Assembly: GCA_002162695.1 (NCBI GenBank)
Contig: MAAM01000015.1
Location: 1 to 54,066 of the forward strand
Length of the DNA: 54,066 nt
Direction of reading: 5' to 3'
From: Cycloclasticus sp. 46_120_T64
GTDB taxonomy: Bacteria > Pseudomonadota > Gammaproteobacteria > Methylococcales > Cycloclasticaceae
In this document: piece after piece, positions 4,775 to 26,418 of the stretch
How the letters are laid out: the number at the start of each line of letters is the position of its first letter
How positions within the stretch are numbered: the stretch's first letter is position 1
The notes under the pieces: model-generated
The model's database searches: none
What the model was told of the DNA's origin: nothing
Seen by the model: only the letters and a program-made list of their open reading frames with translations
Program-made: the position numbers and the translations under genes

Positions 4775-5060
4775 AACGCTCCTTGTTTTCAACCCGCCCA
4801 TGCGAAAATTATAGTCTTTAACCCCACTTATGCTATGGGCAGATAAATAAATACCGCAGATAAGGGCAAGCTCATTCATTAACAAGCGCGTGCCCGCTCA
4901 ATACGTCAAACCTTACACGTTGATCATTAAAGAAGCACTCATTTAAACAATGCGGGGTTCGCTCGGATTAGATCTAGCGAAAGCATGACCAAACGAGGAA
5001 AAGAAAAAGAGGCTGCGGCGAATGAGTAACACTCAAAGAGCCGGCGCTTTAGCGGTTAAA

Positions 5061-8303: not shown

Positions 8304-9114
8304 CGAATCGAATATGGTAACTAGTAAATTTACGAATATTCAGCACCCCAGTGTCCAAAATGAGGTACTGCCCTTTGATGCCTAATAACACACCTTCAAC
8401 GTCGGCGGTTTTGTCGAAATTAAACGATGTCACTTTTGTTGGGTACTCCAATACCGGGTACTCAATCGTGACGGGGCTAGCATCCGGTAGTAATTCGATC
8501 TGGCCTTCACCGTTAGCCTGCTGAAGCTCACTCAAGGCATCGCTCGCTAAAACAAGTAAGCGCGCTCTCTCTTCTTCAAGGTTTCTAGGTTCAGCTTGCC
8601 CCTTGAGCATTTTACGCCAATCTGTTTTGTCTCCCACGTGTTGCTTCAGGGCCATTTCTACTTGGCCTGATTGTAAGCGCGTTTTGACTTTAAATATCGC
8701 CAGTGCTTGGGTGGCGCCTTGGTCGATCCAACGGGTGGGCACTTGCGTATGCCGAGTAATCCCCACTTTCAGCCCCGATGAGTTGGCTAAATAAACGTAA
8801 TGATCTTGAAAGCAATGCGTTTCTCCCCACTGCGGCTCTCGACACGTTCCGAGGTGGTAGTGGCAGGTTTCCGGCTTCATGATACAGAGGTCACACTGTG
8901 CCAGCTTCCTCATACAAGGGTAACAGAAGCCTTGGCTATAACTCTTTTTGGTTTTTTTACCACAGTTAGAGCAATTAATTTCTCCGAGATAAGTCAGCTT
9001 AATTCGTTTACCCAAGTACGGGGTTAACGAAATTAATTCGTCACCAATCGGCAAACTATACTCAACCGGCGAAGCCAACACCGTTTGCATTTTCTTTATC
9101 TGACCTTCAATCAT
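8296..9114 (-). CDS. DUF2797 zinc-binding protein
   Basis: Protein of 272 aa from the ATG at 9114; a TTG one codon earlier is also open. It matches the DUF2797 family. Two N-terminal cysteine pairs (CSNC, CYPC) are followed by CDLC and scattered Cys/His residues, so it probably binds zinc. A central segment (VYLANSSGLKVGITR) resembles a GIY-YIG-like core. No function is established for the family. The start overlaps the end of yqiA by 8 bp, and the gene is in the same operon as the CinA-like protein and uup. Confidence 0.8.
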   Translation of the reverse strand: MIEGQIKKMQTVLASPVEYSLPIGDELISLTPYLGKRIKLTYLGEINCSNCGKKTKKSYSQGFCYPCMRKLAQCDLCIMKPETCHYHLGTCREPQWGETHCFQDHYVYLANSSGLKVGITRHTQVPTRWIDQGATQALAIFKVKTRLQSGQVEMALKQHVGDKTDWRKMLKGQAEPRNLEEERARLLVLASDALSELQQANGEGQIELLPDASPVTIEYPVLEYPTKVTSFNFDKTADVEGVLLGIKGQYLILDTGVLNIRKFTSYHIRFDG

Positions 9115-9685
9115 CAATCTGCCCTATTAAAAAGTTAAATGTCGCTGCTAAATAGTCTTCGTAGTCGTCGAAACCATGGTTACCGCCTTCGATGACCATT
9201 TGTTCACTGCGCTGGTAATAATCGACACCTTGCCGATAATCAAGCACCTCATCCCCTGTTTGGGTTAACAATAAAAGGTTTTCAGGGTGCGCCAACTGTG
9301 GCAAGTACATCCCCTTCAATTGCTGAAGGTGCTGCTCAGTAAATTCAAACACTTGCCCAGTATGGTAGTTTTCATTATTCCCCAAGCGAGCCGCCAGTAA
9401 CTCATACGCTTTCACCGCTGGGTTTATCAACACGCCTTTTTTACGATATTTTTCCGCTAAATAAGTACTATAAAAACCGCCTAAGGAGCTGCCAATCACT
9501 GCCCAGTTTTCTGACTGCAGTGTTTCAATATGCGCTTCAATTAAGGACATCGCTGCTTGAGGGGAAAACGGCAAATCGACCAAGAATAGACTGTGTTGTG
9601 GATGCTGCTCCACAAACTGTTTGACTAACTGCGCTTTGAAAGACGCCGCCGAACTTCCAAAACCATGTAAATAAATGAAGTGCAA
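9107..9685 (-). CDS. yqiA: YqiA/YcfP-family alpha/beta-hydrolase (esterase)
   Basis: Small alpha/beta-hydrolase of 192 aa of the UPF0227 family. It starts YLHGFGSS, has the nucleophile elbow GSSLGG near residue 64, an Asp region (TQTGDEVLDY) and the catalytic His in GGNHGFDDYE near 169. E. coli YqiA hydrolyses short acyl esters; the natural substrate is unknown. The start codon is TTG at 9685; length and alignment with E. coli YqiA support it. The gene is the first of a four-gene overlapping run ending in uup. Confidence 0.85.
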   Translation of the reverse strand: MHFIYLHGFGSSAASFKAQLVKQFVEQHPQHSLFLVDLPFSPQAAMSLIEAHIETLQSENWAVIGSSLGGFYSTYLAEKYRKKGVLINPAVKAYELLAARLGNNENYHTGQVFEFTEQHLQQLKGMYLPQLAHPENLLLLTQTGDEVLDYRQGVDYYQRSEQMVIEGGNHGFDDYEDYLAATFNFLIGQIDD

Positions 9686-9746
9686 AAGACACCCGAGGGT
9701 AGAATAAAGCCGCTAGGATAACCGACCCGCTACAGCGCCGCCATGC

Positions 9747-12700
9747 TTACCGTCCGCTTATCTGATTATTTTCCATGACTGAGGGCTTCTCGCTATTATT
9801 CGCCAAGGCGACATATTCACGCTCAAAGGCTTTTTCTGACAAGGGTTTACTGATCAGGTAACCTTGTATCAGGTCACATTTATGTTTAGCCAAGAAGTCA
9901 TACTGCTGTTGTGTTTCTACACCTTCAGAAACAACCTTCATACCTAGATTATGCGCTAACACAATCATCCCATCAACCACCGCCATATCCTCCTCATTAG
10001 CCGGAATATCTTGAATAAACTCCATATCAAGCTTTAAGGTATCAGCCGGTAGTTTTTTGATATAGCTAAACGATGAATACCCCGTACCAAAATCATCGAT
10101 GGAAATACTCACTCCCATCTTTTTGATCCTATTGAGCATCTCGAGCATCACATCAATATTCTCTAACACCATCGTTTCGGTGACTTCTAGTTCTAGGTAC
10201 TGCGGCTCTAAATCGTGTTTATGCAAACACTCGGCAACCAGTTCAACAAAATTATCTTCTGCCATTTGCACCGCTGACACATTGACCGCTACGGTGCCTT
10301 GATAAGCATGCTCAAGCTGCCAGCGCTTGAGTGTTTCACAGGCATTGTCTAATACCCATAAACCAATTTCTTTGATCAAACCCATTTCCTCGGCCACGGG
10401 AATAAACTCGGCCGGTGATACCATCCCCCGCAGGCGGTGTTGCCAGCGAACCAGGGCTTCAGAACCAATAATCCCTCCGCTCAATACGTCTTGCTTAGGT
10501 TGGTAATATAAAGAGAGCTCATTATCCACCAGAACCTTTCGAAGCTCTGTTTCTACCCGCATCCGCTGTTCCAACACCTCACTCATATCTTGGGTATATC
10601 TACGATAGGTGTTTCGACCCGCCGCTTTAGCCCGGTACATTGCGGTATCTGCATTCTTCAATAAGCTGTCTTTCGACAAACCATCATCGGGGTACATGGC
10701 GATGCCGATACTCACGCTTGCAAACACTTCTTGCCCCGCCACATTAAAAGGTTCATTGAGCGCTTCCAACATCGATTTTGCCACCTTATTCGGCGTATCC
10801 TCATTATTCATATCACTCAGAACAACAACAAATTCATCACCGCCTAGCCTGGCTAACATATCACTGGAGCGAATACAGTTGATTAATCGGCCCGATAGCG
10901 CTTTTAACAAGACATCACCGGCTTCATGGCCGAAGCTATCGTTGATATTTTTAAAACGATCTAAGTCAATAAAAAATATTGCGGTACGCCGCTCATGCCG
11001 TTTTGCATGTTCGAGCTCCTGCTGAAATTGCTCGACAAATGCCGCTCTATTAGGCAGCCCCGTCAAACTATCTTTATAAGCCAGCTTCTGCACGTGTTTG
11101 TCCGCCGCTTGCTTCGCCAATAAACGCTTAACTCTCTGCCGCAACACCGATAAATTAATCGGCTTTGGCACAAAATCAGCAGCACCGCTTTCAAATGCTA
11201 GATCCACTGATTTTTCACTCTCCAATGCCGTCGTAATAAGAATAGGAACACCTTCCCCACCCGGCATTGATTTAATTTCTCTACACGCTTCAAAACCATC
11301 TTTAATTGGCATCATCGCATCCATGATGATCACATTAGGTCGTAACATGTCGAATAACCTCACCGCCTCACGCCCATTACTTCCTTGTTCAACCATATAA
11401 CCTTCGCGCTCTAACACACTGGCCACGGTCATCCGCGTACTTTGATCATCATCAACTATTAAAACGATCTCTTTGCTCCGTTGAGCTTGGCCGTTAGATG
11501 CCACTTTTAGCGTCTCTAACTTAGTCGTTAAGAGCGATTCGACCAAGGAGAACTCGCTTTCTAAACTTGCCGTAAGGCTGATAATTAGCGCTTCATCCTG
11601 CGTATTTTTAGACCAGACCCGTTCTATTTCACTACAAACAGACACGAGGTCTTCAGCCCCGATGTTTCGTGAACTTCCCTTAATTTTATGCGCCAAGTCT
11701 AGGCACTTCGTGGTATCCCCAGCTTCCATAGCAGCGACTAGGGTGATGATGTAAATGGGTGAATCAATCAAGTAGGTATTCACTATTTGCTCGAGACCGT
11801 CACCGGTATTCATCACCAAGGCATCGAACACCGAATCAACAATAACCGTCCCACCCGTTGCCGATGTGTCGATACTTATCGCCGGCTCATCCTCGGAAGC
11901 CGCTTGAACACCGAATGTTTTTTCAAGTTCGGCCAATAACGCCGCTAAAGTAAATGGCTTAAAGAGTATCCCATCCATGCCACTCTGCAAACAGTGTTCA
12001 ACATCTGCGCTCTGAGTTTTCGCCGTGAGCGCCAGAATAAGCGGCTTTTTGCCATCAAAATCTAGGGATCGAATAGCTTCGGTGGCTTGATACCCATCCA
12101 TCACCGGCATATTACAGTCCATTAGCACGATGTCATAATAGCGTTGTTTGAAGCTGTTCAGAGCGTCTCTGCCATTACTCGCTACATCAGCTGTCATCCC
12201 AAGCTCATTGAGCATAGCCATCGCAACCAGCTGATTGGTATCATTATCATCGACGACCAACACCGTCTTATTTTGTAAGACCTCACTGTATTTTTCATTC
12301 AGCTCGGCTGGATTCTTCCGTAGAACCGATTCTTCCTTGTCTGAGAACACCTCCAGCAAGGTCATTCTTAATTTTTCATACCTAACCGGCCTATCAATCG
12401 ACGCAACAAAGGTAAGACCTCCTTCATCCATCGACGTGGTCTTACTGCCAAACCGAACCATCGGAATCAGCTTTGTCCCTTTATAACGAGCATTGGACTT
12501 AAAACCCGTCAAAAAGTCGCTCATACTGCCACCACTGTAATCGACGTTAAAAAGGCATACGTCCGGCGTATCGCCAGTGTTCGCCTCTAGCTTCATCGCC
12601 ACTACCGCCTCCTCAAGGCTATCAACAATTTGATAAGACAGTCCCCAACACTTAAACATGCCTTCCAAATAGCGCTGCGTTTCCGTAAACGGCTCAACCA

Positions 12701-14216
12701 ACAGCACGCTTTTACCCTGTAACAACTCTGCCTCACGTCGGGGCACATCAAGTTCTATATCATACGCTTGCAGGGGTAACGCCAACTTAAAGCAGGCCCC
12801 CTCCCCTTCTATGCTAGATACCGACACATCGCCCCCCATCAGTTCCACCATTTGGCTAACTATGGTCAAACCTAAACCGGTACCACCAAACTCATTAGTT
12901 GTTTCGGCACAGACTTGGGTAAAGGGCAGAAATATCTGCTCTAGTGCTTGCTCAGGAATACCGATCCCCGTATCTGTCACCGAGATTTCAATCAGCGCAC
13001 GGCCGTTGGTATTGGATATTATTTGAGCGGCTAGGGTAATATGCCCACGGACGGTAAACTTAACCGCGTTATTCAACAAATTACTGACGACCTGACGGAT
13101 ACGCGTCGAGTCGGCACGTACAAACAACAACTCGCTCGTCGGCAAGTCTAGGCATAACTCTAAGTCCTTCGCCTGAACTTTTTCGGCATACAGCAAAGCG
13201 AGTTGTTCGAGTAACAACCTTAAATCTAAATCTTTAAGATCTAATTCAAAGTGACCACCTTCTACCTTACTAAAGTCCAATACATCATTCAGCATCTGTA
13301 GCAAAGAGTCACCCGACTTACTCGCCACTTCGAGGTATTCGTGTTGATGCTGAGGCAAGCCCATTTCCTTCAGTAGGTTGACCATCCCCAAAATCCCATT
13401 CAGCGGCGTCCTGATTTCATGGCTTACATTAGCCGCAAAATCAGACTTTATTTTCGCTATTTCAACAGCACGGTCTCTTGAGGCTTCGAGTTCATCAAGC
13501 CGTTGCTCCCCCATCTCCATCATTTGATTAAATGCTTCCGACATCTTGCTCAACTCAGCCGATGTATGATGATCAATTCTCAGCCCAGTTTCTCCCGATG
13601 CCGCTTGGATCATCATCGATGAAAACTCTTCCAAAGGTTTGGTGACTCGCCGAATAACGATAGCCAAGGTCAATAATGAAATGAGTGAAACCAATACAAT
13701 AATGCCCGCATTGGTAAAAAATATCGCTTCCACATAAGCACTTAACGGTGGTTTTTTTAATATCAGCATTAGATATGCCGTATCAGCCCCCTTATAAGGT
13801 GTTTCGAGTCTAGCGGTAAAATAGAATGCCTGATCCGTTTCACGTTCAAAGCGGGCCTTCACACTATTAATATCTTGCCAACCGACAATCGACTCATAAT
13901 CAAGCCTCTTTTGGGTCGAAAACAACGGGGTAAATTCATCATCAAAAACAATGATTTTTTGCACTTCAGGAAGCTTAAACAAACTACTAGAGCTATAACC
14001 CAAAAACTCCTCAAAACTACCGGAGAATGGGGTAGATAACTGAGCAATGAATGAGTTTGCTATATTTTCGCCGTACTCAATATACGCGCGACGCTCCCGC
14101 TCATAGGTCACATAAGAAACAAAGGAAGAAGAAACAAGAGACAAAAATATAAGACACAGCGAAAGCGCCACGTTTAATTGTTTATTAAAGCCTTGTTTTT
14201 CAGTCCTTGAATTCAT
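9747..14216 (-). CDS. Histidine kinase / receiver / Hpt / GGDEF / EAL mosaic protein
   Basis: Protein of about 1489 aa joining phosphorelay and cyclic-di-GMP signalling. The start is ATG 14216 (AAGG seven bases upstream); ATG 14243 is less well placed. Order: TM (about 15-40), periplasmic sensor, TM (about 165-190), HAMP, HisKA (SHEIRTP, His near 265), HATPase (FGGTGLGLT), a degenerate receiver (CLFNVD in place of the Asp motif), an intact receiver (LMDCNMP), Hpt (HKIKGSSRNIGA, His near 843), a third receiver (IMDAMMP), GGDEF and EAL. The cyclase has an intact GGDEF and an I-site RSSD five residues before it. The EAL domain keeps EALVRW, VTETM, DDFGTGYSS and EGVET. Both c-di-GMP synthesis and breakdown look possible; which dominates is unknown. 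Confidence 0.93.
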   Translation of the reverse strand: MNSRTEKQGFNKQLNVALSLCLIFLSLVSSSFVSYVTYERERRAYIEYGENIANSFIAQLSTPFSGSFEEFLGYSSSSLFKLPEVQKIIVFDDEFTPLFSTQKRLDYESIVGWQDINSVKARFERETDQAFYFTARLETPYKGADTAYLMLILKKPPLSAYVEAIFFTNAGIIVLVSLISLLTLAIVIRRVTKPLEEFSSMMIQAASGETGLRIDHHTSAELSKMSEAFNQMMEMGEQRLDELEASRDRAVEIAKIKSDFAANVSHEIRTPLNGILGMVNLLKEMGLPQHQHEYLEVASKSGDSLLQMLNDVLDFSKVEGGHFELDLKDLDLRLLLEQLALLYAEKVQAKDLELCLDLPTSELLFVRADSTRIRQVVSNLLNNAVKFTVRGHITLAAQIISNTNGRALIEISVTDTGIGIPEQALEQIFLPFTQVCAETTNEFGGTGLGLTIVSQMVELMGGDVSVSSIEGEGACFKLALPLQAYDIELDVPRREAELLQGKSVLLVEPFTETQRYLEGMFKCWGLSYQIVDSLEEAVVAMKLEANTGDTPDVCLFNVDYSGGSMSDFLTGFKSNARYKGTKLIPMVRFGSKTTSMDEGGLTFVASIDRPVRYEKLRMTLLEVFSDKEESVLRKNPAELNEKYSEVLQNKTVLVVDDNDTNQLVAMAMLNELGMTADVASNGRDALNSFKQRYYDIVLMDCNMPVMDGYQATEAIRSLDFDGKKPLILALTAKTQSADVEHCLQSGMDGILFKPFTLAALLAELEKTFGVQAASEDEPAISIDTSATGGTVIVDSVFDALVMNTGDGLEQIVNTYLIDSPIYIITLVAAMEAGDTTKCLDLAHKIKGSSRNIGAEDLVSVCSEIERVWSKNTQDEALIISLTASLESEFSLVESLLTTKLETLKVASNGQAQRSKEIVLIVDDDQSTRMTVASVLEREGYMVEQGSNGREAVRLFDMLRPNVIIMDAMMPIKDGFEACREIKSMPGGEGVPILITTALESEKSVDLAFESGAADFVPKPINLSVLRQRVKRLLAKQAADKHVQKLAYKDSLTGLPNRAAFVEQFQQELEHAKRHERRTAIFFIDLDRFKNINDSFGHEAGDVLLKALSGRLINCIRSSDMLARLGGDEFVVVLSDMNNEDTPNKVAKSMLEALNEPFNVAGQEVFASVSIGIAMYPDDGLSKDSLLKNADTAMYRAKAAGRNTYRRYTQDMSEVLEQRMRVETELRKVLVDNELSLYYQPKQDVLSGGIIGSEALVRWQHRLRGMVSPAEFIPVAEEMGLIKEIGLWVLDNACETLKRWQLEHAYQGTVAVNVSAVQMAEDNFVELVAECLHKHDLEPQYLELEVTETMVLENIDVMLEMLNRIKKMGVSISIDDFGTGYSSFSYIKKLPADTLKLDMEFIQDIPANEEDMAVVDGMIVLAHNLGMKVVSEGVETQQQYDFLAKHKCDLIQGYLISKPLSEKAFEREYVALANNSEKPSVMENNQISGR

Positions 14217-14337
14217 TTTACCGCCTTTAAAAATTAACACCATTATCCTGTTTGCAATAAAGCGCCGTCAACCCACTCTAGGGAGTAACACCCGCTTACA
14301 ATATTAGTTGATAATCTTCGAGCCGCTTAAAAATCAT

Positions 14338-16870: not shown

Positions 16871-17698
16871 ATGCGTTTCAGCTTGCTTATTGCTTCTTTA
16901 TTATTACTCAGCGCCTGTGGTGAACGGGTCGACCCTGAATTGTTAAAAACGGCTGTTTTCAACTACCCAGACAAACTTTCAACAGATTGTCCCAGCGGGG
17001 AAAAGCGCGGCAAAGCCGGCCTCAGCGATGACAATAAAATTAGCAACGGCGCTAGTTATAACCTAAGAACTCCCACCAACTATCAAGAAACCTTTGCCCA
17101 CCCGCTGATCGTTGTATTTGCGCCAGCCGGCATCAATTCCCGCCGTTCTGAACGCTATGTACACCTCACCCAGGAAGCAACATCCGCAGGGTTCATTATT
17201 GCCTACGCTAATAATATCCGTCTCTCCCTTAAGGCCATCGATAAACTCTCTAAAATTCCTAGCGACGTGCAAGAAAACTGGTGTATTGACCCGTCACGCA
17301 TTTACTACACGGGGCACTCCGATGGTGGCAGTATTTCCAATGCCTTAAGCTTTTTACCCACAGCCACCACCAAACCAACCGCCATAGCACCCAGCGCCTC
17401 GGGAATAGATGGCGAAAGCCTAAAAACCTATGATTGCCCCACGCCGCTACCGGTCATGGTGTTTCACAATAGCGACGACAGCCACTTTGAGGGTTTCGGC
17501 AAACAATCAGCCGACTGGTGGGCAAACTGTAATCAATGTAGCGATGAACTCGCTGAGGCCGACAAAAATGGTTGCCGCGCCTATAAAAATTGCCCATCGG
17601 CGACCTCACAAACGTATTACTGCGAAGGCCCGGGATCACATGAAGATTGGCCAAATAAAAACCACGTTATTCTCGACTTCTTTAATCAGCGTTATTGA
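16871..17698 (+). CDS. Lipoprotein esterase, PHB-depolymerase/LpqC-like
   Basis: Predicted outer-layer lipoprotein of 275 aa. The signal peptide ends in lipobox LLSAC with Cys16. The mature part is an alpha/beta-hydrolase resembling polyhydroxybutyrate depolymerase and feruloyl esterase families: LIVVFAPAG near residue 79, nucleophile elbow GHSDGG near 149, an Asp region (FHNSDDSH) and a late His (GSHEDWP). Several Cys residues (CNQC, YKNC) could form disulfides. Substrate is unknown; a short ester or polyester is an inference. Its stop lies at the start of the sugar-dehydrogenase gene, so the two are probably cotranscribed. Confidence 0.75.
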   Translation: MRFSLLIASLLLLSACGERVDPELLKTAVFNYPDKLSTDCPSGEKRGKAGLSDDNKISNGASYNLRTPTNYQETFAHPLIVVFAPAGINSRRSERYVHLTQEATSAGFIIAYANNIRLSLKAIDKLSKIPSDVQENWCIDPSRIYYTGHSDGGSISNALSFLPTATTKPTAIAPSASGIDGESLKTYDCPTPLPVMVFHNSDDSHFEGFGKQSADWWANCNQCSDELAEADKNGCRAYKNCPSATSQTYYCEGPGSHEDWPNKNHVILDFFNQRY

Positions 17699-17706
17699 GC
17701 TCCAAC

Positions 17707-18870
17707 ATGCAGCGGCGACTAACACTGATGCTATCGCTCGCCGCTGTTACCCTCCTTGCCTGGCAACTATTCGCTGAAAAACTTAGCTTCAACCCCGCCA
17801 TTAAGCTAAACGCTGCGGTCAGCGCGCAACAAACACTGGACAATCTAAACCTCAGCCAAGGCTTTAGCATATCGATACACACGAGCAAGCTCCCCGGTGT
17901 ACGCGCCCTCATCAGCACCCGCAGCGGGGATTTAATTATCTCGCAACCCCGCGCAGGAACCGTCAGCCTGATATACCGTGATGCCAATAATGACGGTGTC
18001 TCAGACGGCAAGGCGGTATTAGTTAAGGGCTTGAATAGACCGCATGGCCTCGCCCTGCACAAAGGCTGGTTATATATTGCAGAAACCGACGCGGTGCTCC
18101 GTATTCGTTTCGATGCCGAACGAGGTATAACCCTTGGACAAGTCGAGTACATCATCCAGCAACGTTTTCCCGGCGATGGTAACCACTGGACTCGCAGCAT
18201 TAAAATTAGCCCCAATAACAAGCTATTGATCAGCATCGGTTCTAGCTGCAATGTATGTATCGAGCACTCGGAAAAACGCGCCAGTATTTGGCAATATGAT
18301 TTAGATGGCCGTAATGAAACCTTGTACGCCAGTGGCCTGAGAAACACCGTCGGCTTTGACTGGAAAACTAACACCTTAGATTTATACGGCGTAGATAATG
18401 GACGTGACTTTCTCGGTGATGATGAGCCGCCAGAGGAACTCAACCGGATACGTCCACAGCAGCATTATGGTTGGCCATACCAACACGGAGACGGGCAAGC
18501 CGACCCTAGCTACGCCTCGCAAAAGCCAGCTGCATTAATCACCCACGCACCGAGCCACCTACTGCCCGCACATAGCGCGCCACTGAGTTTGTTATTTATA
18601 AAACACAATCCTGCGCTCAAAGGTCGCGCTTTGGTTACCTTACACGGTTCATGGAACCGGTCGAAGAAATCTGGTTATAAGGTCGTGATGCTTTCATTTT
18701 TAGCTGACCAGTCCATCCAGCAAACGGACTTCATCTCTGGCTTTGAAAAAGACAACCGTGTATTTGGTCGCCCGGTTGATTTAACCGAAGATCGTCACGG
18801 CAACATCTACCTGAGTGATGACTTCAACGGTAGAATCTACAAAATAGCGACTCGCCTCCCTAAGCAATAA
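17707..18870 (+). CDS. PQQ-dependent sugar (aldose/sorbosone-type) dehydrogenase
   Basis: Periplasmic or membrane-anchored beta-propeller of about 387 aa. An N-terminal hydrophobic signal or anchor is followed by the glucose/sorbosone dehydrogenase fold: RPHGLAL, PGDGNHWTR, YASGLRNTVGFDW, VDNGRDFLGDDEPPEE and a late HGSWNR. These are the usual PQQ and calcium contact regions of soluble aldose-sugar dehydrogenases. ATG 17707 is taken; an in-frame TTG at 17695 overlaps the previous stop and is an alternative. Neither has a strong ribosome binding site, which fits coupling. True substrate and cofactor use are inferred from family. Confidence 0.8.
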   Translation: MQRRLTLMLSLAAVTLLAWQLFAEKLSFNPAIKLNAAVSAQQTLDNLNLSQGFSISIHTSKLPGVRALISTRSGDLIISQPRAGTVSLIYRDANNDGVSDGKAVLVKGLNRPHGLALHKGWLYIAETDAVLRIRFDAERGITLGQVEYIIQQRFPGDGNHWTRSIKISPNNKLLISIGSSCNVCIEHSEKRASIWQYDLDGRNETLYASGLRNTVGFDWKTNTLDLYGVDNGRDFLGDDEPPEELNRIRPQQHYGWPYQHGDGQADPSYASQKPAALITHAPSHLLPAHSAPLSLLFIKHNPALKGRALVTLHGSWNRSKKSGYKVVMLSFLADQSIQQTDFISGFEKDNRVFGRPVDLTEDRHGNIYLSDDFNGRIYKIATRLPKQ

Positions 18871-18996: not shown

Positions 18997-19908
18997 TTAG
19001 CTTTTCCGCGCAGAGAACATACCATAACAACCAATGCCATCGTGCAATACGTGGTATTGGCCAAAACAGGCGTTAAAATTGCCACTTTGCACCGAACTTC
19101 TCAGCTTAAACCAGCTCATTATTTTTTCCATCGGGTAGGTGAACAAGGCCGTGTAATAAAGTCGTTTTGATGATGGCTGAGTATTACGGGTGATATCTCG
19201 ATAATCTATATCGGCAAAACCAGCCTGATTCATATGAGTTTCAAATTCTTCAGGGGTCGTCATATTGGGCATGGCCCAGCCATTTAATACCTTCAGCACG
19301 TGCGCCCATTCAGTAGGCGTTAACTCTCGTTTACTCGCAAAACCATCGGCCATCGCAAAACCGCCACCTTTTTTTAATACCCGGTGAGCTTCATTAATAA
19401 AGTCTGATTTTTTAAGTGCGTAACAGACACTTTCTAACGCCCATACGTGGTCAAATGATTCATCCGCAAATGATGTATTGGTATAATCTTCGAGCTTAAA
19501 ATCTACCAAGTGATCTACACCGCGTTTTTTAGCATTTTTATTTGCCTGCACGATTTGGCTCTCGGAAATTGTAATACCGGTGACTTTCACCGCAAAATTC
19601 TCCGCCAACCAAATCGAGCTACCGCCAATACCACACCCCGCGTCGAGCACGTGATCGCCTGCTTTGAAATCAAACTGCGCGGCGAGCTGCTCATTCATCT
19701 CCAATAAAGAATCACTGTGCGACTTTGTTTTTTCCGACCAATAACCGTAATGAATCGCCAGGTTGATACTATTCAACCAAGACGTTCGATAGTCCCAATA
19801 ACTTTGATCATAATAATCCGCGATATCATTTCTTAAGTCATCACGACTTTGCGTGCGGTGGTCGATATCTTTTTCGATGAAGATTAAATTTTTCGAGCTC
19901 TTAGACAT
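18997..19908 (-). CDS. SAM-dependent class I methyltransferase
   Basis: Methyltransferase of 303 aa. The SAM motif VLDAGCGIGG (near residues 86-95), a following acidic strand end (KVTGITISE), post-motif WALESVCY and RVLKKGGGFAMADG place it with the sterol/tocopherol C-methyltransferase, cyclopropane-synthase-like group. The substrate cannot be read from sequence. It starts 6 bp after the yqaA stop, so it is the last gene of the copper-protein cluster. A role in lipid or quinone modification is possible but unsupported. Confidence 0.82.
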   Translation of the reverse strand: MSKSSKNLIFIEKDIDHRTQSRDDLRNDIADYYDQSYWDYRTSWLNSINLAIHYGYWSEKTKSHSDSLLEMNEQLAAQFDFKAGDHVLDAGCGIGGSSIWLAENFAVKVTGITISESQIVQANKNAKKRGVDHLVDFKLEDYTNTSFADESFDHVWALESVCYALKKSDFINEAHRVLKKGGGFAMADGFASKRELTPTEWAHVLKVLNGWAMPNMTTPEEFETHMNQAGFADIDYRDITRNTQPSSKRLYYTALFTYPMEKIMSWFKLRSSVQSGNFNACFGQYHVLHDGIGCYGMFSARKS

Positions 19909-19914
19909 ACTGAA

Positions 19915-20349
19915 TTAACTAATAATAAGTGAAATAACAAAATACCGAGCAAACTTGCCCAGAGTAATAAAAAACAACGATTTTATAATGGACAACCGGA
20001 GCCAACCCGCGGCCAAACACAACACATCACCAATCAGCGGCAACCAACTTAATAACAGGGCGATGCTACCGTAGCGCTGAATCAGCGCGTTAGCTTTTGC
20101 AAAGTTCTTCGAATTGGTGTTTTTAGGCGGATACTGACTAGATGCCAAGGTCCCTAGGTAAAACGATGTCAGCGCCCCCAGTGTATTACCCACGGTCGCC
20201 ACTACGACCAAATATAACGCTGACTGTTCCCCATTTAATAACAAATAAACGAGAACCGCTTCAGACCCACCTGGGGCCAGTGTCGATGAAATAAACGCGC
20301 TAATGAATAAGCCCGTCACCCCATAGTTTTCTACCAAGCTCTCAAACAC
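19915..20349 (-). CDS. yqaA: YqaA-family membrane protein (DedA/SNARE-associated type)
   Basis: Integral inner-membrane protein of 144 aa with about four hydrophobic segments. It has the YqaA hallmark near the N-terminus (APGGSEAVLVYLL), GNTLGALTSFYLG, and a re-entrant-like LLSWLPLIGDVLCLAAGWLR. The DedA superfamily is linked to lipid transport and membrane homeostasis; YqaA itself has no settled function. The start is GTG at 20349, matching the usual YqaA N-terminus length. It lies 14 bp after the cupredoxin gene and 6 bp before the methyltransferase gene. Confidence 0.85.
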   Translation of the reverse strand: MFESLVENYGVTGLFISAFISSTLAPGGSEAVLVYLLLNGEQSALYLVVVATVGNTLGALTSFYLGTLASSQYPPKNTNSKNFAKANALIQRYGSIALLLSWLPLIGDVLCLAAGWLRLSIIKSLFFITLGKFARYFVISLIIS

Positions 20350-20363
20350 CTAAATAACGTCGT

Positions 20364-20990
20364 TTATTTTTTATGCCAAATAAAGAAAAACAGGCTGCTT
20401 GAAAAGCCTAACACTAACAGCACAATCAACAACAGGATGTTTTGAAAACCGACATCAAATTCATAACTGTCTCTATTTAGCTGCCCCGATATGCCGGGAA
20501 TAGAGGGCAGATTACCGTCTCCACCACCGACCTTAACTTGGGCCTTCATGCCTTTCTCGGTATGCTGTGCAATATCACAATGCGCCAAATAGGTTTGTTC
20601 AGTATTCGGGGTAATGAAGGTGCCGCGAACCTCACCACGGCCATATAACTCCATATGGAACATCCCCTGAGGGTGCAGATAACTCGGTAAACCATGGATC
20701 ATAAATTGGTGACGAATATCATCTTCGTTGATAAACGTCACTTCAACACGCGTACACTTCGCAAAGCTAAACTCATGTTGGTTATAACCAAAAATAGTCC
20801 CTGGGTAGGGTTTGGCGTATTCCCGTCCAGCTTTAACAAGCAAGGTCTCTTCGTTCTCGATGCTTGCGCAACCTTGCGGCAATTGTGTTGAATTTTCATT
20901 CATCACCATGCCCCAGTCTCCCATACGCATTGCCGCCTGCGCATGGCTACAGCAAACGATCAGCAATAAGGCCATTAACAGAGGTTTCAT
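20364..20990 (-). CDS. Membrane-anchored cupredoxin
   Basis: Protein of 208 aa with a Sec signal peptide (ending ...SHAQA), one cupredoxin domain and a C-terminal transmembrane anchor (about 180-204) ending in a short basic tail. Type-1 copper ligands look present: His in DIRHQFMIHG, then Cys and His in AHCDIAQH with Met five residues on (TEKGM). The domain should face the periplasm. Its ATG overlaps the multicopper-oxidase stop as ATGA, so translation is coupled. Likely a copper carrier or one-electron shuttle for the oxidase or the monooxygenase; the partner is inferred. Confidence 0.82.
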   Translation of the reverse strand: MKPLLMALLLIVCCSHAQAAMRMGDWGMVMNENSTQLPQGCASIENEETLLVKAGREYAKPYPGTIFGYNQHEFSFAKCTRVEVTFINEDDIRHQFMIHGLPSYLHPQGMFHMELYGRGEVRGTFITPNTEQTYLAHCDIAQHTEKGMKAQVKVGGGDGNLPSIPGISGQLNRDSYEFDVGFQNILLLIVLLVLGFSSSLFFFIWHKK

Positions 20991-22696
20991 AAGGACTGCC
21001 TATCTTTTAACTTAACCGCAATATCATGCAAGAAACTGTACAGCGCATTAAACAATAAAAACAGCACACCCATTAACATTCCCAGCACAATAATCAATAA
21101 AACATCACTAAAGGATTTAATCGTCTTACCCCCCACATCATCAAAGAATCCAAACGCATCACTCGCCGCCCAAGTCGGTAACTCACCTTTATAATACTCG
21201 GGACTAAAGTAAGGGCGAATGTCGACACCTTCGCCGCTTGGCATGGCATGCTTATTCAAGTACTTTCGATAGATAATCTGCGACACGTTGCCACCCGGAG
21301 CAATGCCATTATTCGTAATAGCCCGTTCCGCGTGATCGTGTAATAACCAGATGCCCTCGCCGTAACTGTGTAAACCGTCGTCTTTGGTATACAAGTCTAA
21401 ATCGATCCGTTGAGCGGGGGAAACGCTATAAACATCACGGGTCACCTGCGCGACGGGATTCACATCAACCCCATCATTCGCCGTGATCGTCGCTTTATGG
21501 CCGTGTGAGTGTAGCGCTAACACTTCCGCAGTACCATTTAGCACACGCATTTTAATGTGTTGATTGGCCTCTACCGACACCAAGGACTCACGTAAGGTAT
21601 AAGGAAAAGAGCGGCCATTCAACAGAAAGTAATCATCTGTGCCATCGGTAATATCGTATACACGGTTCATCTTTTTCGCTAATTGACGAGGGTCATTCGA
21701 TGTTTGGATGAGGTTATTAAGTGCCGTATCTATCGCTTGATAGTGCATATCATATTCTTGTTCAAACGACTCCTGCACAGCGACCGATGGTTGCCGAACC
21801 TTACCGGCACCAACATTAAACGTTTGCACCCAATTATTGGGTTTATTTTCTTCGACAATAAACAAACCTTGTAAGCCCATCATAAAGTGCACCTGCACTT
21901 GAACGTGACAGTGATACATCATGGTACCAGCATGGCGCGGCTTAATTTTATACACGTGCTGCTCACCCGGCATGGTCATTTTTTCACTGGTTTGCGGCAC
22001 CCCGTCGTTATTTGAATAACTATGGTCCACCCCGTGCAAATGTATGGTATGCGGGAAATAATGGGTGTTTTCCAAGATCAGGGTAACATTGTCTCCGGCT
22101 TCAACCCGTATCGGTGCCGATGGTAAGCGTAACAAGTGGTTCGCCTTCATCTCCTCACGATTAACCGTCGACATTCCTCGACTTTTAGGCGCAAACACCC
22201 AAGCCCCCGGCTGAATACCCGGCGCTATATCAAAACTTGGTATGAACCCCTCGTCATCTGGAGAACGGCCGTTGAGTTCAGCCACTTCAACTCGAATAAC
22301 AATATCATCGGGATCGCCGTCGCCGTCGATATCATTTGTCTTAATAACCGCGTCATCGGCTAACTGAGTTCGCATCAACACCGGCATGATGACGTTATTG
22401 GTTCCCAATACAAACGCCGCCACCTCATAAGGGTTATCAGGATTACAGGCATCTGAAGGCTGAATATTAACCCCACCAATATTGTATGCCTTACGCCACT
22501 CGGGGTACTGCTCATCACAAATCGTCACCTCCGCCACCTCTGGCTTCGGTTTTGACTGCGGGGGTGCCTGATAACCCGGCATGCCGATATAATCAAAAAA
22601 TCGCGGATACAATAAAAATGGGTCATAAAGAATAAGCGCAATAACACTGAGTATTATTGCGCTTAGTGACAAGCTAAATACGGAGTACTTCTTCAT
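20987..22696 (-). CDS. Two-domain multicopper oxidase anchored at both ends
   Basis: Protein of 569 aa. There is a TM at about 7-27, a long periplasmic part, and a second TM at about 527-552. Copper motifs: HTIHLHG (near 212-218), MYHCHVQVQVH with following MM (near 259-271), ALHSHGH (near 395) and LLHDHAE (near 452). This gives a type-1 site in domain 1 plus His pairs in both domains for a trinuclear site, the pattern of type C two-domain oxidases such as the Nitrosomonas europaea blue copper oxidase. A loop near 120-130 (DIDGDGDPDD) looks calcium-binding. It is not a NirK: the NirK His motif is absent. Substrate unknown; Cu(I) oxidation or electron exchange is a guess from context. Confidence 0.85.
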   Translation of the reverse strand: MKKYSVFSLSLSAIILSVIALILYDPFLLYPRFFDYIGMPGYQAPPQSKPKPEVAEVTICDEQYPEWRKAYNIGGVNIQPSDACNPDNPYEVAAFVLGTNNVIMPVLMRTQLADDAVIKTNDIDGDGDPDDIVIRVEVAELNGRSPDDEGFIPSFDIAPGIQPGAWVFAPKSRGMSTVNREEMKANHLLRLPSAPIRVEAGDNVTLILENTHYFPHTIHLHGVDHSYSNNDGVPQTSEKMTMPGEQHVYKIKPRHAGTMMYHCHVQVQVHFMMGLQGLFIVEENKPNNWVQTFNVGAGKVRQPSVAVQESFEQEYDMHYQAIDTALNNLIQTSNDPRQLAKKMNRVYDITDGTDDYFLLNGRSFPYTLRESLVSVEANQHIKMRVLNGTAEVLALHSHGHKATITANDGVDVNPVAQVTRDVYSVSPAQRIDLDLYTKDDGLHSYGEGIWLLHDHAERAITNNGIAPGGNVSQIIYRKYLNKHAMPSGEGVDIRPYFSPEYYKGELPTWAASDAFGFFDDVGGKTIKSFSDVLLIIVLGMLMGVLFLLFNALYSFLHDIAVKLKDRQSL

Positions 22697-22710: not shown

Positions 22711-23310
22711 CTAGTCGTCAGTCTCTTTTTCGTTCGGCACAGCGGATTTTTTACGCGAAAACCAAACCATGATGAGAATGATAATAATAAAAGCGACAAT
22801 CGGTATCTTCAATACTTCCGGAATACCCGCTGGTGGCAAACCCACCGAGAATGGGAAACGAGAAATAAACTTTTCATTTTCACCTTCAACAATCACATAA
22901 CCGATGAAATGACCTTCTTCTTTAAAATCTTGGCTAATCGTCATCGAACCAGTTGGGTAGTGCTTTGCAGGGATTTCAAAAAATGGCTTTTGCGCTAACT
23001 CGGCCTCATTAATGACGCCGTCATCAGCATTTCCTTGAGCCGCACTATCAGTTTTAAGAACCCTAAAGTTGACCGTCATATCTCGCAACTTATTATCAAT
23101 AAAATCTAACACGATAATCGACTTACCAACCCCCGGCATATCATCACAAAACTGCTTAGAGACGTTATTCTCTGGCTGATAACCAGAAAAATTCATCATA
23201 TAGGGGCCAACACTGAGCTTACATTGGTTACCATCATTAGCTACCCCACCGTGTCCCCACGACAGCGTACTCATAAAAGCGAGTATTAGCACATAAAAAA
23301 CCTTATACAT
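22711..23310 (-). CDS. PmoD/AmoD-like periplasmic protein with C-terminal anchor
   Basis: Protein of 199 aa with a signal peptide ending near SWGHG, a periplasmic domain and one C-terminal TM (about 166-186) followed by a charged tail. Possible copper ligands sit early: N-terminal His, Cys in NQCKLS, adjacent Met-Met, then Cys and Met in FCDDM. Architecture and position just after pmoCAB match PmoD/AmoD proteins, which bind copper and support the monooxygenase in methanotrophs. Sequence identity to them cannot be judged here, so the name is by analogy. It opens the second transcription unit, behind its own promoter, 14 bp before the multicopper oxidase. Confidence 0.6.
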   Translation of the reverse strand: MYKVFYVLILAFMSTLSWGHGGVANDGNQCKLSVGPYMMNFSGYQPENNVSKQFCDDMPGVGKSIIVLDFIDNKLRDMTVNFRVLKTDSAAQGNADDGVINEAELAQKPFFEIPAKHYPTGSMTISQDFKEEGHFIGYVIVEGENEKFISRFPFSVGLPPAGIPEVLKIPIVAFIIIILIMVWFSRKKSAVPNEKETDD

Positions 23311-23355: not shown

Positions 23356-23379
23356 ACATTTGATTAGCGGCAAATAACT

Positions 23380-23408
23380 AAAAAAGCCCCGCTTAACAGG
23401 GCTTTTTT
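23380..23408. terminator. Strong terminator between pmoB and the copper-protein cluster
   Basis: AAAAAAGCCC (23380-23389) pairs with GGGCTTTTTT (23399-23408) across a 9-nt loop. It has a T run in either direction. On the minus strand it ends pmoCAB. Confidence 0.85.
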
Positions 23409-23425
23409 ACCCACATCAGCTAACC

Positions 23426-24661
23426 TTATATAAATACCGGCACTAAAGGCCCTCCAATCGCCACAATAGAACGTTTATTCTCGTTATCAAAGAAGAAAAG
23501 CAAACCGCCAAAACGGCTATCGGGATCATAAACAACCTTAGCCAAGCGGTGCGTCTCCCATGCCGCATCGGTGCAAGTGACTTTGAGTAGCTTTGTTTCA
23601 CCGGGGTACACGATGCCACCCTCATACTTCAGGCCATTCGTCGCAACGGGGTCGTGGCTATCGGCTGGCTCAGCCGTCGACACATCGGGGTTCATCCAGC
23701 GAATATTAGCCGAGGTAAATTCGCCTAAACGAATCGGTGAGTTGGTATTATTTGTGACATTAACTGAAAACTCTAACGCACGCCCGGACACTCGATACCT
23801 CGCATCAACCACCTCCGCACGAACCCCCAGGGTTGTATCGGGCAATGGCGGAATATTAGTTCGGCCACTTTGCAAGGGGATCGTGATGGGGTATTTAGCT
23901 TGCGTATCATAATAACTCCAAGTCACCACCACCACCGTGCCGATCAATAGCACTAAACCGATCGTACGTTGCGTAGAAGTTATCATGTCATCGGCATTCT
24001 CCCCTAGTAGCTTCACCTTTTTATAGCGTGGAATAAGAATAGGCCCTTGGAAAAGCCAGTATAACAACCAAGCAGCTGCCACAACGCCCCAAAACACGTG
24101 CCACCTAATTGAGTTTTGCAAACCATATGTTTCTAAATCAATGGTTTCACCAGTCAGGGTAGTGACCTCATTGGAAAAATCAGCCATATCGCCAGTCACT
24201 TCAACCCAGCGACCTGGGCCAATTAACGGCCCCGCTTTTTTTACATTCATCAAGGCATGCATATGGATTCGAGCCGCTCTACGCGCTTTTAACACCACTT
24301 TAAATTCATAAGTAGAACCAATATCAAAACGGGTAGAATTAACCCCACTCACCCCATTGATATATGAGGCTTTTCTGACAAAGACAGGACCCGGGATACC
24401 TATATTTAAAAAAGCGACCTCCGGTTTTGCAATATTCGCTGGCCAATCATAAAACCAATAAAACTTTCCGGTCATCACCAATTCATCATTCACCATCAGC
24501 TTAGTGGTCGATACCTCAACGTCATACCATAGAAGGGTACGCATTCTCAAATAAGCCGCTTGAGATTTTTCACCATGAGCCATCACCGGAGCCGCATAGA
24601 CTGCAACGACGATGCTTATCGCGGCGACCAAGATGGCGATTGTTTTTTTTAAATTCAACAT
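23426..24661 (-). CDS. pmoB: Copper membrane monooxygenase subunit B
   Basis: Subunit B of 411 aa, the size of methanotroph PmoB. The start is ATG 24661 with GAGG six bases upstream (an ATG four codons earlier is less likely). The signal peptide leaves a mature N-terminus at His29 (HGEKSQ), the first CuB ligand. His133 and His135 in the IHMH motif complete CuB. Two periplasmic cupredoxin domains flank two TM helices (about 180-200 and 230-250). The C-terminal block YDPDSRFGGLLFFF is typical. Leu44 and Tyr68 replace the bis-His pair known from Methylococcus capsulatus (His48, His72). Last gene of pmoCAB; a strong terminator follows. Confidence 0.93.
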   Translation of the reverse strand: MLNLKKTIAILVAAISIVVAVYAAPVMAHGEKSQAAYLRMRTLLWYDVEVSTTKLMVNDELVMTGKFYWFYDWPANIAKPEVAFLNIGIPGPVFVRKASYINGVSGVNSTRFDIGSTYEFKVVLKARRAARIHMHALMNVKKAGPLIGPGRWVEVTGDMADFSNEVTTLTGETIDLETYGLQNSIRWHVFWGVVAAAWLLYWLFQGPILIPRYKKVKLLGENADDMITSTQRTIGLVLLIGTVVVVTWSYYDTQAKYPITIPLQSGRTNIPPLPDTTLGVRAEVVDARYRVSGRALEFSVNVTNNTNSPIRLGEFTSANIRWMNPDVSTAEPADSHDPVATNGLKYEGGIVYPGETKLLKVTCTDAAWETHRLAKVVYDPDSRFGGLLFFFDNENKRSIVAIGGPLVPVFI

Positions 24662-24743
24662 ATCATCCCTCATTTATTATTGCTGCAAAGCGATTAATCC
24701 ACCCTAAACGATGGCTGACTAAGCTCCCGTATGTGCCACAAAT

Positions 24744-25487
24744 TTACAGCTTTTTCACCCATATTGTTTTTGCAAGCGCCTTGCCGATACCGACCCAAAT
24801 AAAATAAGCAAATACCGAAATAAATCCTGCAAAGAATGCCGAAACAGGCACCACACTTTCCCCGAAGGTTCGTAAAGTCCCCTCTTCAATAATGCGAATA
24901 TATTCAGGAGTTCCCGTTCTGACATAGCTGTATCCCATCAAGTCAGCTATCGACATCATATTACCGTTGTACTCCACTGGCACGTGATACGGCGCAATAA
25001 TCGCCCAATTTGCCGGGTAAAAAATAAGCCCCCAAATCATTGATCCTATAACCCCCGTCACCAAAAAACTGCGACTGATCAGCAGGACTGAGTCCAGCAC
25101 CAGCGCCATCGGAATAATTTCAGCGGGCACCACCATATTCAACGGGTAATAAGCCCAGCCAACAAAATTAACCACTCGACTCACCCACTCGCCGGCTAGT
25201 AAACCTGCACAACAAAGCGTGGCCCCAAACGGCAGCCTAAAATGTTGCCAGAATAAATAATGTAATGCCGCCGGAAAGAAAATCAGCGTAATAGGGGTAA
25301 TGGTCACCCACCAACGCCGGTCTTTCCAGTCGATCCAAAAATCCCAATCCCCAGCCGTTAACATGAAGTGAATATGGAAGGCCCCAATAATAACCAACAC
25401 AACAATTGGGATAACGATCCAATCAAATGCCTTATAGACTCGATGCTGTTGTTCAGCTGTAGTAATAGCAGACCGTACGACCCCCAT
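24744..25487 (-). CDS. pmoA: Copper membrane monooxygenase subunit A
   Basis: Integral membrane subunit of 247 aa, the same length as PmoA of Methylococcus and shorter than AmoA of ammonia oxidisers (about 275). Family landmarks: GDWDFW and DWKDRRWW (near residues 45-60), FPAALHY, GEWVSRVVNF, GLIFYPANW, HVPVEYNG, YVRTGTPEYIR and TLRTFGE. About seven hydrophobic helices. Start ATG has AGGAG seven bases upstream. An 82-bp gap separates it from pmoB and a 160-bp gap from pmoC. The complex hydroxylates a small substrate with O2 in the membrane; which one is not shown. The name pmoA is by family; hmoA or similar would suit if the substrate is a larger hydrocarbon. Confidence 0.95.
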   Translation of the reverse strand: MGVVRSAITTAEQQHRVYKAFDWIVIPIVVLVIIGAFHIHFMLTAGDWDFWIDWKDRRWWVTITPITLIFFPAALHYLFWQHFRLPFGATLCCAGLLAGEWVSRVVNFVGWAYYPLNMVVPAEIIPMALVLDSVLLISRSFLVTGVIGSMIWGLIFYPANWAIIAPYHVPVEYNGNMMSIADLMGYSYVRTGTPEYIRIIEEGTLRTFGESVVPVSAFFAGFISVFAYFIWVGIGKALAKTIWVKKL

Positions 25488-25647
25488 AACAAACTCCTAG
25501 TTATTTTGCATAAACTATTTCTTTTTTCGCCCCCGACTAATCACTAGCTACTCGCTCAGCGGCCTATACAATTCGGGGCATAACATATCGCTAAGTAAAC
25601 GGAGGCGGCCAAATGGCTTGAAGTACGCCCCCTTTTTTACTCCTTCA

Positions 25648-26418
25648 TTAATCATTCATATCCTCAGTAAGTTCCTCCTCTAACTGAGTCAACTGAACCA
25701 TTCTGGGAATTATTTGTAAAAACAAACCGCCCAGTGCTAACGCCGTCCAGCCTAAAACCACAAAGCCCCAGTGTATCGGCGCCGCAAATAGTTCTTCCAT
25801 AAACCAAAAGGTGTGCCCCCATTCGTTTAAACCGACATTAGGTAGAATCATAAACGGACCCAGTACCGCTATTACAAAAGGGATCGAAAGACGTTTTGCG
25901 AATTGCGGTAAGCGCGTTCTGGCATAGAGGAAGGAACCCACTCCTGCTAGGATATAACAAGGCATCACCCCATAGAACAACACGATATGACTCGGCGTAA
26001 AATCAGTATCGCGCACAGTAACTTGGTGCCACGAAGCATCTTGTTCCGCAAAGAAACTAGCTGCCCAATACACTATCCATACATAAGCAAACAACCAAGC
26101 TATCAGCGTAAAGTGACGTTGCAGCTCTTCTTGCGGTGTTATATTAAACACATCCTTATCGCGTGTCTTAATCAGATACCCCCAAACCACCGCCGCCGCG
26201 GTAAATTCCAAAATCCATTGTGTATACAGTAAGTTCATCCAATACACATCGAACTCGGCTTCAAACGAATCCAGCCCCTTCTCCCAAGCAAACACTTGCT
26301 GGTAAACACGCCAAGCGACCATTGTCGCCAACACCACGAAAAATATAATGGCAATTCTCTTCGCGCCAACCAAGCCTTTAGAAACATCTACATCAGTAAT
26401 CTCTGTAGGTTCACCCAT
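25648..26418 (-). CDS. pmoC: Copper membrane monooxygenase subunit C
   Basis: Membrane subunit of 256 aa. The start is ATG 26418 with GGAGGG six bases upstream; an ATG 20 codons earlier encodes an unlikely extension. The CuC ligands Asp127, His131 and His144 (QDASWHQ ... TPSHI) and the CuD ligands Asn198, His202 and His216 (NEWGH ... APIHW) all match the pattern in Methylococcus PmoC with identical spacing, so the subunit should be metal-competent. Six or so TM helices. First gene of pmoCAB, diverging from mltF. The 160-bp gap before pmoA is a common feature of such operons. Confidence 0.95.
   Translation of the reverse strand: MGEPTEITDVDVSKGLVGAKRIAIIFFVVLATMVAWRVYQQVFAWEKGLDSFEAEFDVYWMNLLYTQWILEFTAAAVVWGYLIKTRDKDVFNITPQEELQRHFTLIAWLFAYVWIVYWAASFFAEQDASWHQVTVRDTDFTPSHIVLFYGVMPCYILAGVGSFLYARTRLPQFAKRLSIPFVIAVLGPFMILPNVGLNEWGHTFWFMEELFAAPIHWGFVVLGWTALALGGLFLQIIPRMVQLTQLEEELTEDMND

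Follow-up and report, generated by a model that had tools for sequence, protein, structure and literature searches.

Copper membrane monooxygenases (CuMMOs) of Cycloclasticus have been described by Arrington et al. 2024 (PMC12510462), and in the excerpts of that paper on which we draw, one Cycloclasticus PmoA clade is called 'only distantly related' to particulate methane monooxygenase (pMMO), is given an 'unknown' substrate and has no validated members. According to the same excerpts, phmo peptides of Cycloclasticus were seen when pentane was the growth substrate, one of them belonging to the 'unknown' clade. The proximity of PmoD and multicopper oxidase (MCO) genes is also already published: in the excerpts used here of Fisher et al. 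(PMC6189053), PmoD proteins of the Cx8M class bind copper without a CuA site, are commonly encoded near MCOs, and all PmoD-bearing genomes are said to have a CuMMO operon, and in part of a further paper (PMC6688271), a pmoD and an MCO gene are neighbors in both Methylococcus capsulatus and Methylacidiphilum. Here, we describe a pmoCAB operon and the copper protein genes downstream of it in Cycloclasticus sp. 46_120_T64 (GCA_002162695.1, contig MAAM01000015.1). The stretch analyzed, hereafter the window, has 54,066 nucleotides and corresponds to bases 1-54066 of contig C10 in a genome of 2.21 Mb, 15 contigs and 99.97% completeness. The operon probably encodes the Cycloclasticus particulate hydrocarbon monooxygenase (pHMO) for short alkanes, accompanied by a putative copper-supplying module composed of PmoD, an MCO and a cupredoxin. 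This proposal is based on gene content, copper ligands, clade, pathway genes and co-occurrence, from which we infer the substrate range, the copper-loading role and all electron flow.

The pmoCAB operon

The operon lies on the minus strand at positions 23426-26418, in the order C-A-B, and is composed of three intact genes. The pmoC-like gene (25648..26418) codes for 256 aa from its ATG and matches Pfam AmoC at 1.5e-102, an E-value that refers to the scan of a longer, TTG-started frame of this gene; the pmoA-like gene (24744..25487) codes for 247 aa (Pfam AMO, 6.9e-107), and the pmoB-like gene (23426..24673) for 415 aa (Pfam Monooxygenase_B, 2.7e-142). All three subunits match Pfam and NCBIfam CuMMO families at curated cut-offs. 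The best PDB match of PmoA is the pMMO subunit 1yew_B (2.1e-98), which has the same length of 247 residues. The CuB, CuC and CuD ligands, whose identities we take to be those of the pMMO structures, are all found in the translated sequences.

An earlier sequence-only reading of this DNA had described three complete subunits with a PmoA of 247 aa, and both statements agree with the intact frames and with Pfam matches far beyond chance. Its PmoC ligands, D127/H131/H144 (CuC) and N198/H202/H216 (CuD), are confirmed as numbered, and the CuB histidines that it assigned to PmoB are the right residues under other numbers: they are H33, H137 and H139 from the ATG at 24673, and positions 29, 133 and 135 when counted from an internal methionine (Met5). 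It had also reported that the window holds neither a methanol dehydrogenase nor a hydroxylamine oxidoreductase (HAO) gene, and indeed no methanol dehydrogenase family match above cut-off was found in the window, where two weak pyrroloquinoline quinone (PQQ) matches of 33 and 25 bits both fall within BamB, nor any HAO family match in the whole genome. The housekeeping context that it saw is real for the wider window (GuaA, GuaB, XseA, Der, BamB, HisS, RlmN) and does not extend to the immediate neighborhood, where PmoD, MCO and cupredoxin genes stand directly downstream. These genes, and a second CuMMO elsewhere in the genome, had been overlooked.

Phylogeny of the subunits

In trees of 47 PmoA and 46 PmoB rows, eight rows of the window type, all from Cycloclasticus, group as one clade (support 98/98 for PmoA and 100/100 for PmoB), so that the operon belongs to the Cycloclasticus pHMOs both by its genome and by a CuMMO clade common to other Cycloclasticus. 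The sister of this clade consists of five rows from the Gammaproteobacteria G027, G155 and G268 (93/95 and 90/91, not starred). All rows of the methane, ammonia, Pxm, plasmid Hmo and C14 types, the last named after the contig with the second CuMMO of the genome, fall outside the window-type clade in both trees. The methanotroph PmoA clade (99/96) excludes the window copy, which in the PmoB tree is also outside the methanotroph rows, these being not all joined there. The window copy likewise lies outside the ammonia monooxygenase (AMO) clade, outside the Pxm clade, whose mark we take to be an A-B-C gene order, different from the C-A-B order found here, and outside the actinobacterial Hmo clade formed by the plasmid copies of Mycolicibacterium NBB4 and Rhodococcus WAY2. 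The labels of some genomes in the trees rest on searches for HAO and for the ribulose monophosphate (RuMP) pathway (both for G153 and G266, HAO alone for G340), and G191 and G045 were labelled methanotroph-like by tree position only. This is the phylogeny that the sequence-only reading had proposed as its check, naming as contrary outcomes a place among AmoCAB with hao elsewhere in the genome, or among true methanotrophs with their C1 genes; neither was observed. A nitrifier was rejected as a reading of this genome, because it gave no HAO match and neither its PmoA nor its PmoB groups with the ammonia-oxidiser rows. The window type is probably the 'unknown' Cycloclasticus clade of PMC12510462.

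A PmoA scan of named genomes yielded 33 loci, the five nearest of which are 79-84% identical and come from four Cycloclasticus metagenome-assembled genomes (MAGs), mussel and sponge symbionts among them, and from one 'uncultured Piscirickettsiaceae'. PmoA was found in 12 of the 18 Cycloclasticus genomes searched, in 18 copies that score and tree divide into three kinds: the window type in eight genomes, the C14 type in eight and a third type in two. The 46_120_T64 genome has two CuMMOs, the window copy and an operon on contig C14 (locus L003, 5801-10398) in which two pmoC copies stand side by side, accompanied by pmoA, pmoB and the gene of a PmoD that has the CuA ligands. As listed, the reading frames of this pmoB and this PmoD overlap.

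Carbon pathway genes

The genome gave no match above cut-off for the formaldehyde-activating enzyme (fae) and no match for HAO, a search that was positive in three of eight other genomes, and its best score for RuMP synthase (HPS) was 28.6 bits against a cut-off of 200. The markers of a methanotroph C1 pathway (XoxF/MxaF, fae or RuMP) were not found in a search that did not extend to serine-cycle genes. Two PQQ dehydrogenases, on contigs C8 and C14, score above the methanol/ethanol-family cut-off. The C8 enzyme is closer to quinoprotein ethanol dehydrogenases (879 bits to 6zcv, which we take to be PedH, and 689 to 1flg) than to XoxF (371) or MxaF, and the C14 enzyme, which contains a cytochrome c domain, scores 430 bits to 6zcv, 428 to the quinohemoprotein alcohol dehydrogenase 1kv9 and 364 to XoxF. 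In both, as read by eye, the presumed catalytic Asp is followed by a second Asp two positions on (DFD, DYD), presumably a lanthanide signature. Beside the C8 enzyme, prpB, prpC and acnD were found above cut-off, together with prpE-like and prpF-like genes and, by eye, an acyl-CoA dehydrogenase and a TetR-type regulator. The prpF-like gene, which runs off the end of the retrieved sequence, is below its cut-off; an AcnD/PrpF route stands in for prpD in the methylcitrate cycle.

As predicted from these genes, the alcohol route is of the C3-and-up kind rather than a methanol route, and in the excerpts of PMC12510462 the PQQ alcohol dehydrogenases of Cycloclasticus are likewise outside the methanol clade. 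The search for alcohol dehydrogenases that the sequence-only reading had suggested ended in an ethanol-type enzyme beside propionate/methylcitrate genes. Its best guess, a short-chain hydrocarbon monooxygenase of a non-methanotroph, stands as to the kind of enzyme (by clade, by the missing HAO and fae, by RuMP synthase below cut-off and by the ethanol-type dehydrogenase) and is as conditional as before with regard to the substrate. A short-chain hydrocarbon best fits the data because no HAO, fae or RuMP synthase was found above cut-off and an ethanol-type PQQ dehydrogenase accompanies the propionate/methylcitrate genes.

The PmoD-MCO-cupredoxin module

The interval between pmoB and pmoD contains a terminator-like hairpin (23379..23409, minus strand) with a 14-pair stem and a T tail, and a strong hairpin was found at this place in all eight operons folded (six from Cycloclasticus, G027 and G268). 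We trust it for its strength and recurrence and not for its count, since the terminator scan found 12 candidates against 9.7 expected. A promoter scan gave fewer matches than shuffled sequence and was not used.

Behind the hairpin, on the same strand, the first gene (22711..23310) codes for a PmoD family protein of 199 aa, assigned by its match to PmoD in PDB (6cpd, E 2.8e-13) and by two conserved cysteines. Reading of its letters places it in the Cx8M class, with Asn in the position of the CuA His (CKLSVGPYMMN); the CuA set Cx7MxH, found in a subset of PmoD proteins and present in the C14 PmoD, is thus missing here, as in all 14 PmoDs listed from MCO loci (for two PmoDs from other loci, the motif could not be parsed).

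The MCO gene follows (20987..22696, minus strand), coding for a two-domain-laccase-like protein of 569 aa in which the motifs HLHG, HCH, HSHGH and HDH, which we take to provide the type 1 and trinuclear copper sites, are all present. Most homologues conserve HxHG, HCH, HxHGH and HDH; several lack a strict match for one of the four, and that of G155 has HGF in place of HGH. A low-confidence AlphaFold2 model shows hydrophobic helices at both termini (6-24 and 529-568) and is too poor, as a single chain with a mean pLDDT of 37.9, to judge a trimeric fold. The nearest solved structure is 3g5w, presumably the blue copper oxidase of Nitrosomonas europaea. A 15-pair hairpin at 22633-22665, within the first part of the MCO coding sequence, may be due to chance or may be a regulatory structure.

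The third gene (20364..20990, minus strand) overlaps the MCO stop by four bases and codes for a cupredoxin-like protein of 208 aa (Pfam Cu-oxidase_2, 9.3e-8) with a type-1-like Cys-x4-His-x4-Met (C138, H143, M148) and a C-terminal hydrophobic helix. A phmmer search against PDB gave nothing better than E 0.53, and Foldseek with its weak predicted model (59.4) gave no match at E <= 0.001. The cupredoxin genes of G155 (L088, about 8600-8900) and G268 (L084, 7566-8447) start with tandem MDHSGM/MDHSQM repeats, which we take to resemble the copper-binding repeats of CopA/PcoA; in L088, the stretch includes a block of undetermined bases.

Genes for a VTT-domain membrane protein (19915..20349) and a methyltransferase-domain protein (18997..19908), both on the minus strand, come next and are conserved neighbors in Cycloclasticus, as judged by synteny. 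A glucose/sorbosone dehydrogenase-like (GSDH) protein is encoded close to these copper genes at 17695-18870. Elsewhere, the window encodes two very large sensors, a histidine kinase with six CHASE3 stretches (287-4885) and a histidine kinase-Hpt-GGDEF-EAL hybrid (9747-14243).

Distribution of the MCO

An MCO profile built from six MCOs adjoining pmoCAB genes was searched in 369 Gammaproteobacteria at E <= 1e-60. The MCO was found in 11 genomes, a CuMMO (PF02461) also in 11, and both in nine (Fisher p = 9e-15; 8e-12 if the two Cycloclasticus are left out; 3e-10 if counted by family, with 177 families assumed; none of these values accounts for deeper kinship). A second search, of 36 genomes at E <= 1e-30, found the MCO in 13: all ten other CuMMO-bearing Cycloclasticus, the Hyphomicrobiales MAG OFTM156, Methylobacter KS41 and UBA4132. 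This test covered 22 of the 28 non-Cycloclasticus PmoA loci, the others (L023, L026, L027, L029, L030 and L032) being all of the Nitrospira group. In Cycloclasticus overall, the MCO is present in 12 of 12 genomes with a CuMMO, counting the MCO of G013, which is cut by a contig end, and that of G009, which is split over two frames, and in neither of the two tested genomes without one. No MCO was found in a scan of viral contigs, and plasmids gave matches in 31 records, which among the 20 matches listed are at most 31% identical and mostly haloarchaeal.

The module also occurs where a local pmoCAB is missing. In G007, G014 and G009, which have only a C14-type CuMMO, the locus reads transglycosylase, PmoD, MCO, cupredoxin, VTT and methyltransferase, the window-type pmoCAB being missing (in G009, PmoD is split over two frames as well); G013 is a fourth genome with the C14 type only. 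In G017, the module is on a different contig from the window-type pmoCAB. Therefore, within the genus, the MCO tracks any CuMMO and not the adjacent one. Outside the genus, the MCO-cupredoxin pair stands beside pmoAB or pmoCAB in G268 and G027. Over all MCO loci, an adjacent cupredoxin was not found by tblastn at three (L085, L136 and the contig-end fragment L137). In G061, a single-contig genome with no PmoA match, PmoD, MCO and cupredoxin genes (L086, 7545-14003) lie directly downstream of the cytochrome oxidase subunits COX1, COX3 and COX4. This genome, which was searched for PmoA only, counters the statement on PmoD-bearing genomes in the excerpts of PMC6189053.

Discussion

The pmoCAB operon is a complete, ordinary member of a known, recently described kind. 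In the mechanism that we propose, PmoCAB in the inner membrane would use O2 and copper to hydroxylate the terminal carbon of short alkanes, from ethane to about pentane, methane presumably not serving as a growth substrate. The alcohols would pass to periplasmic PQQ alcohol dehydrogenases of the ethanol type, and odd-chain products would yield propionyl-CoA for the methylcitrate cycle. The module behind the terminator would provide the CuMMO with copper of the required redox state: PmoD would bind copper, the MCO would oxidise Cu(I) or the cupredoxin, and the cupredoxin would pass on copper or electrons. This copper-loading or redox role is our proposal. More broadly, and with somewhat less than even confidence, a PmoD lacking CuA, a membrane-anchored two-domain MCO and a cupredoxin may form a dedicated maturation or redox partner of CuMMOs across many Gammaproteobacteria, not tied to a neighboring pmoCAB. 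If so, the module would provide the oxidation or electron step that is missing when pMMO and AMO are purified.

Several observations weigh against this proposal. None of the tree rows used within the window-type clade is a substrate-tested sequence, we know of no substrate test for that clade, and the second CuMMO, on C14, could do the alkane work. In a sponge-symbiont MAG (L004), pmoC is not beside pmoA; at 8760-10000 of that locus there is no pmoC upstream of pmoA, and a short stretch, read by eye, resembles a transposase remnant. With regard to propionate, the prpE-like ligase is under both propionate-CoA ligase cut-offs and passes only that of an acetate-CoA ligase subfamily, and prpD was not found in the genome search. 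The MCO occurs without a PmoA match in G061 and in G181 (87% complete), and CuMMO (PmoA) occurs without the MCO in G045 and G230. It was not found either in six alphaproteobacterial CuMMO genomes tested, with OFTM156 as the sole exception in that group, or in 13 of the Nitrospira group, so that a CuMMO has no general need of it. The profile subfamily is also biased towards CuMMO-linked relatives because it was built from copies beside pmoCAB, and the search omitted four incomplete, PmoA-less Cycloclasticus genomes (G008, G012, G015 and G016).

The alternative that survives best, unlikely as we consider it, is that the MCO and cupredoxin are ordinary copper detoxification genes, common by chance in copper-demanding bacteria. 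MCOs such as CueO/CopA are known for copper detoxification. PmoD-MCO neighborhoods are known as well, according to the excerpts of PMC6189053. However, the MCO is limited to 11 of the Gammaproteobacteria sampled, nine of them with a CuMMO, and neither of the two Cycloclasticus tested that have no CuMMO gave a match, although they too would have to defend themselves against copper.

It is rather improbable that the pair handles nitrogen oxides (NO, or hydroxylamine from ammonia co-oxidation by the CuMMO) and not copper. Support for this idea comes from G340, which has three matches each for PmoA and for HAO and in which the MCO and a His-rich cupredoxin of 333 aa (L082, 2347-10024) are next to genes for a cytochrome c, a COX1-superfamily protein and a CbbQ/NirQ/NorQ-family protein, read as norCBQ; such an NO-reductase-like neighborhood suits a nitrogen-oxide role and counts against copper supply. 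HAO matches in G153 and G266, and 3g5w as nearest solved structure, point the same way. On the other hand, the 46_120_T64 genome has no HAO match, yet the MCO accompanies every CuMMO-bearing Cycloclasticus; the module of G061 is beside cytochrome oxidase, and the MCO travels with PmoD, a copper protein.

We give a similarly low probability to the window copy being a high-affinity or auxiliary CuMMO that acts on something else (co-oxidation of methane or ammonia, or oxidation of alkanes from pentane upwards), with the C14 copy as the main short-alkane enzyme. Its PmoA and PmoB are outside the C14-type clade, the best solved relative of its PmoA is a methane enzyme, and in five genomes the window type is accompanied by one or two CuMMOs of other types; however, no C1 or hydroxylamine markers were found, and G003, G004 and G010 (98, 99 and 83% complete) gave no CuMMO besides it. 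A true methanotroph pMMO, suggested by the length of PmoA and its solved-structure match, is barely credible, being refuted by the pathway genes tested (barring an unrecognised C1 route) and by the place of PmoA outside the methanotroph clade.

For the short-alkane pHMO that we favor, the enzyme would belong to those thought to rid the sea of natural gas and of alkanes from oil spills, and the module would give named genes to a long-standing problem, the activity loss of CuMMOs on purification, their copper loading and their electron supply. Cycloclasticus genomes that have the module and another CuMMO without a local pmoCAB offer natural comparisons. No report of the MCO-cupredoxin pair with a CuMMO in Cycloclasticus was found in the open-licence literature, which is weak evidence of absence; the cupredoxin, the co-occurrence and the persistence without a local pmoCAB may be the part of the module's story that is absent from that literature as searched.

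Comparison with known systems

As far as the excerpts of PMC12510462 go, the operon resembles the 'unknown' Cycloclasticus phmo clade in genus, in a PmoA clade distantly related to pMMO, in more than one CuMMO copy per genome, in PQQ alcohol dehydrogenases that are not of the methanol type and in methylcitrate genes; the words multicopper and cupredoxin are absent from the main text of that paper. It shares copper ligands, a PmoA of 247 aa and the C-A-B order with the pMMOs of Methylococcales, from which it is set apart by a separate clade and a genome without the C1 pathway markers tested. The window PmoD, compared with the PmoD/AmoD proteins in the excerpts of PMC6189053, is homologous to 6cpd, has a copper gene context and belongs to the Cx8M class, whereas it has Asn for the CuA histidine and stands between pmoB and the MCO. 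Finally, the MCO is similar to the two-domain laccases and blue copper oxidases 3g5w and 2zwn, with all four copper-binding motifs, and is distinguished from them by a length of about 570 aa, a hydrophobic helix at each terminus, an N-terminal region that includes the acidic stretch DGDGDPD and, usually, a cupredoxin neighbor.

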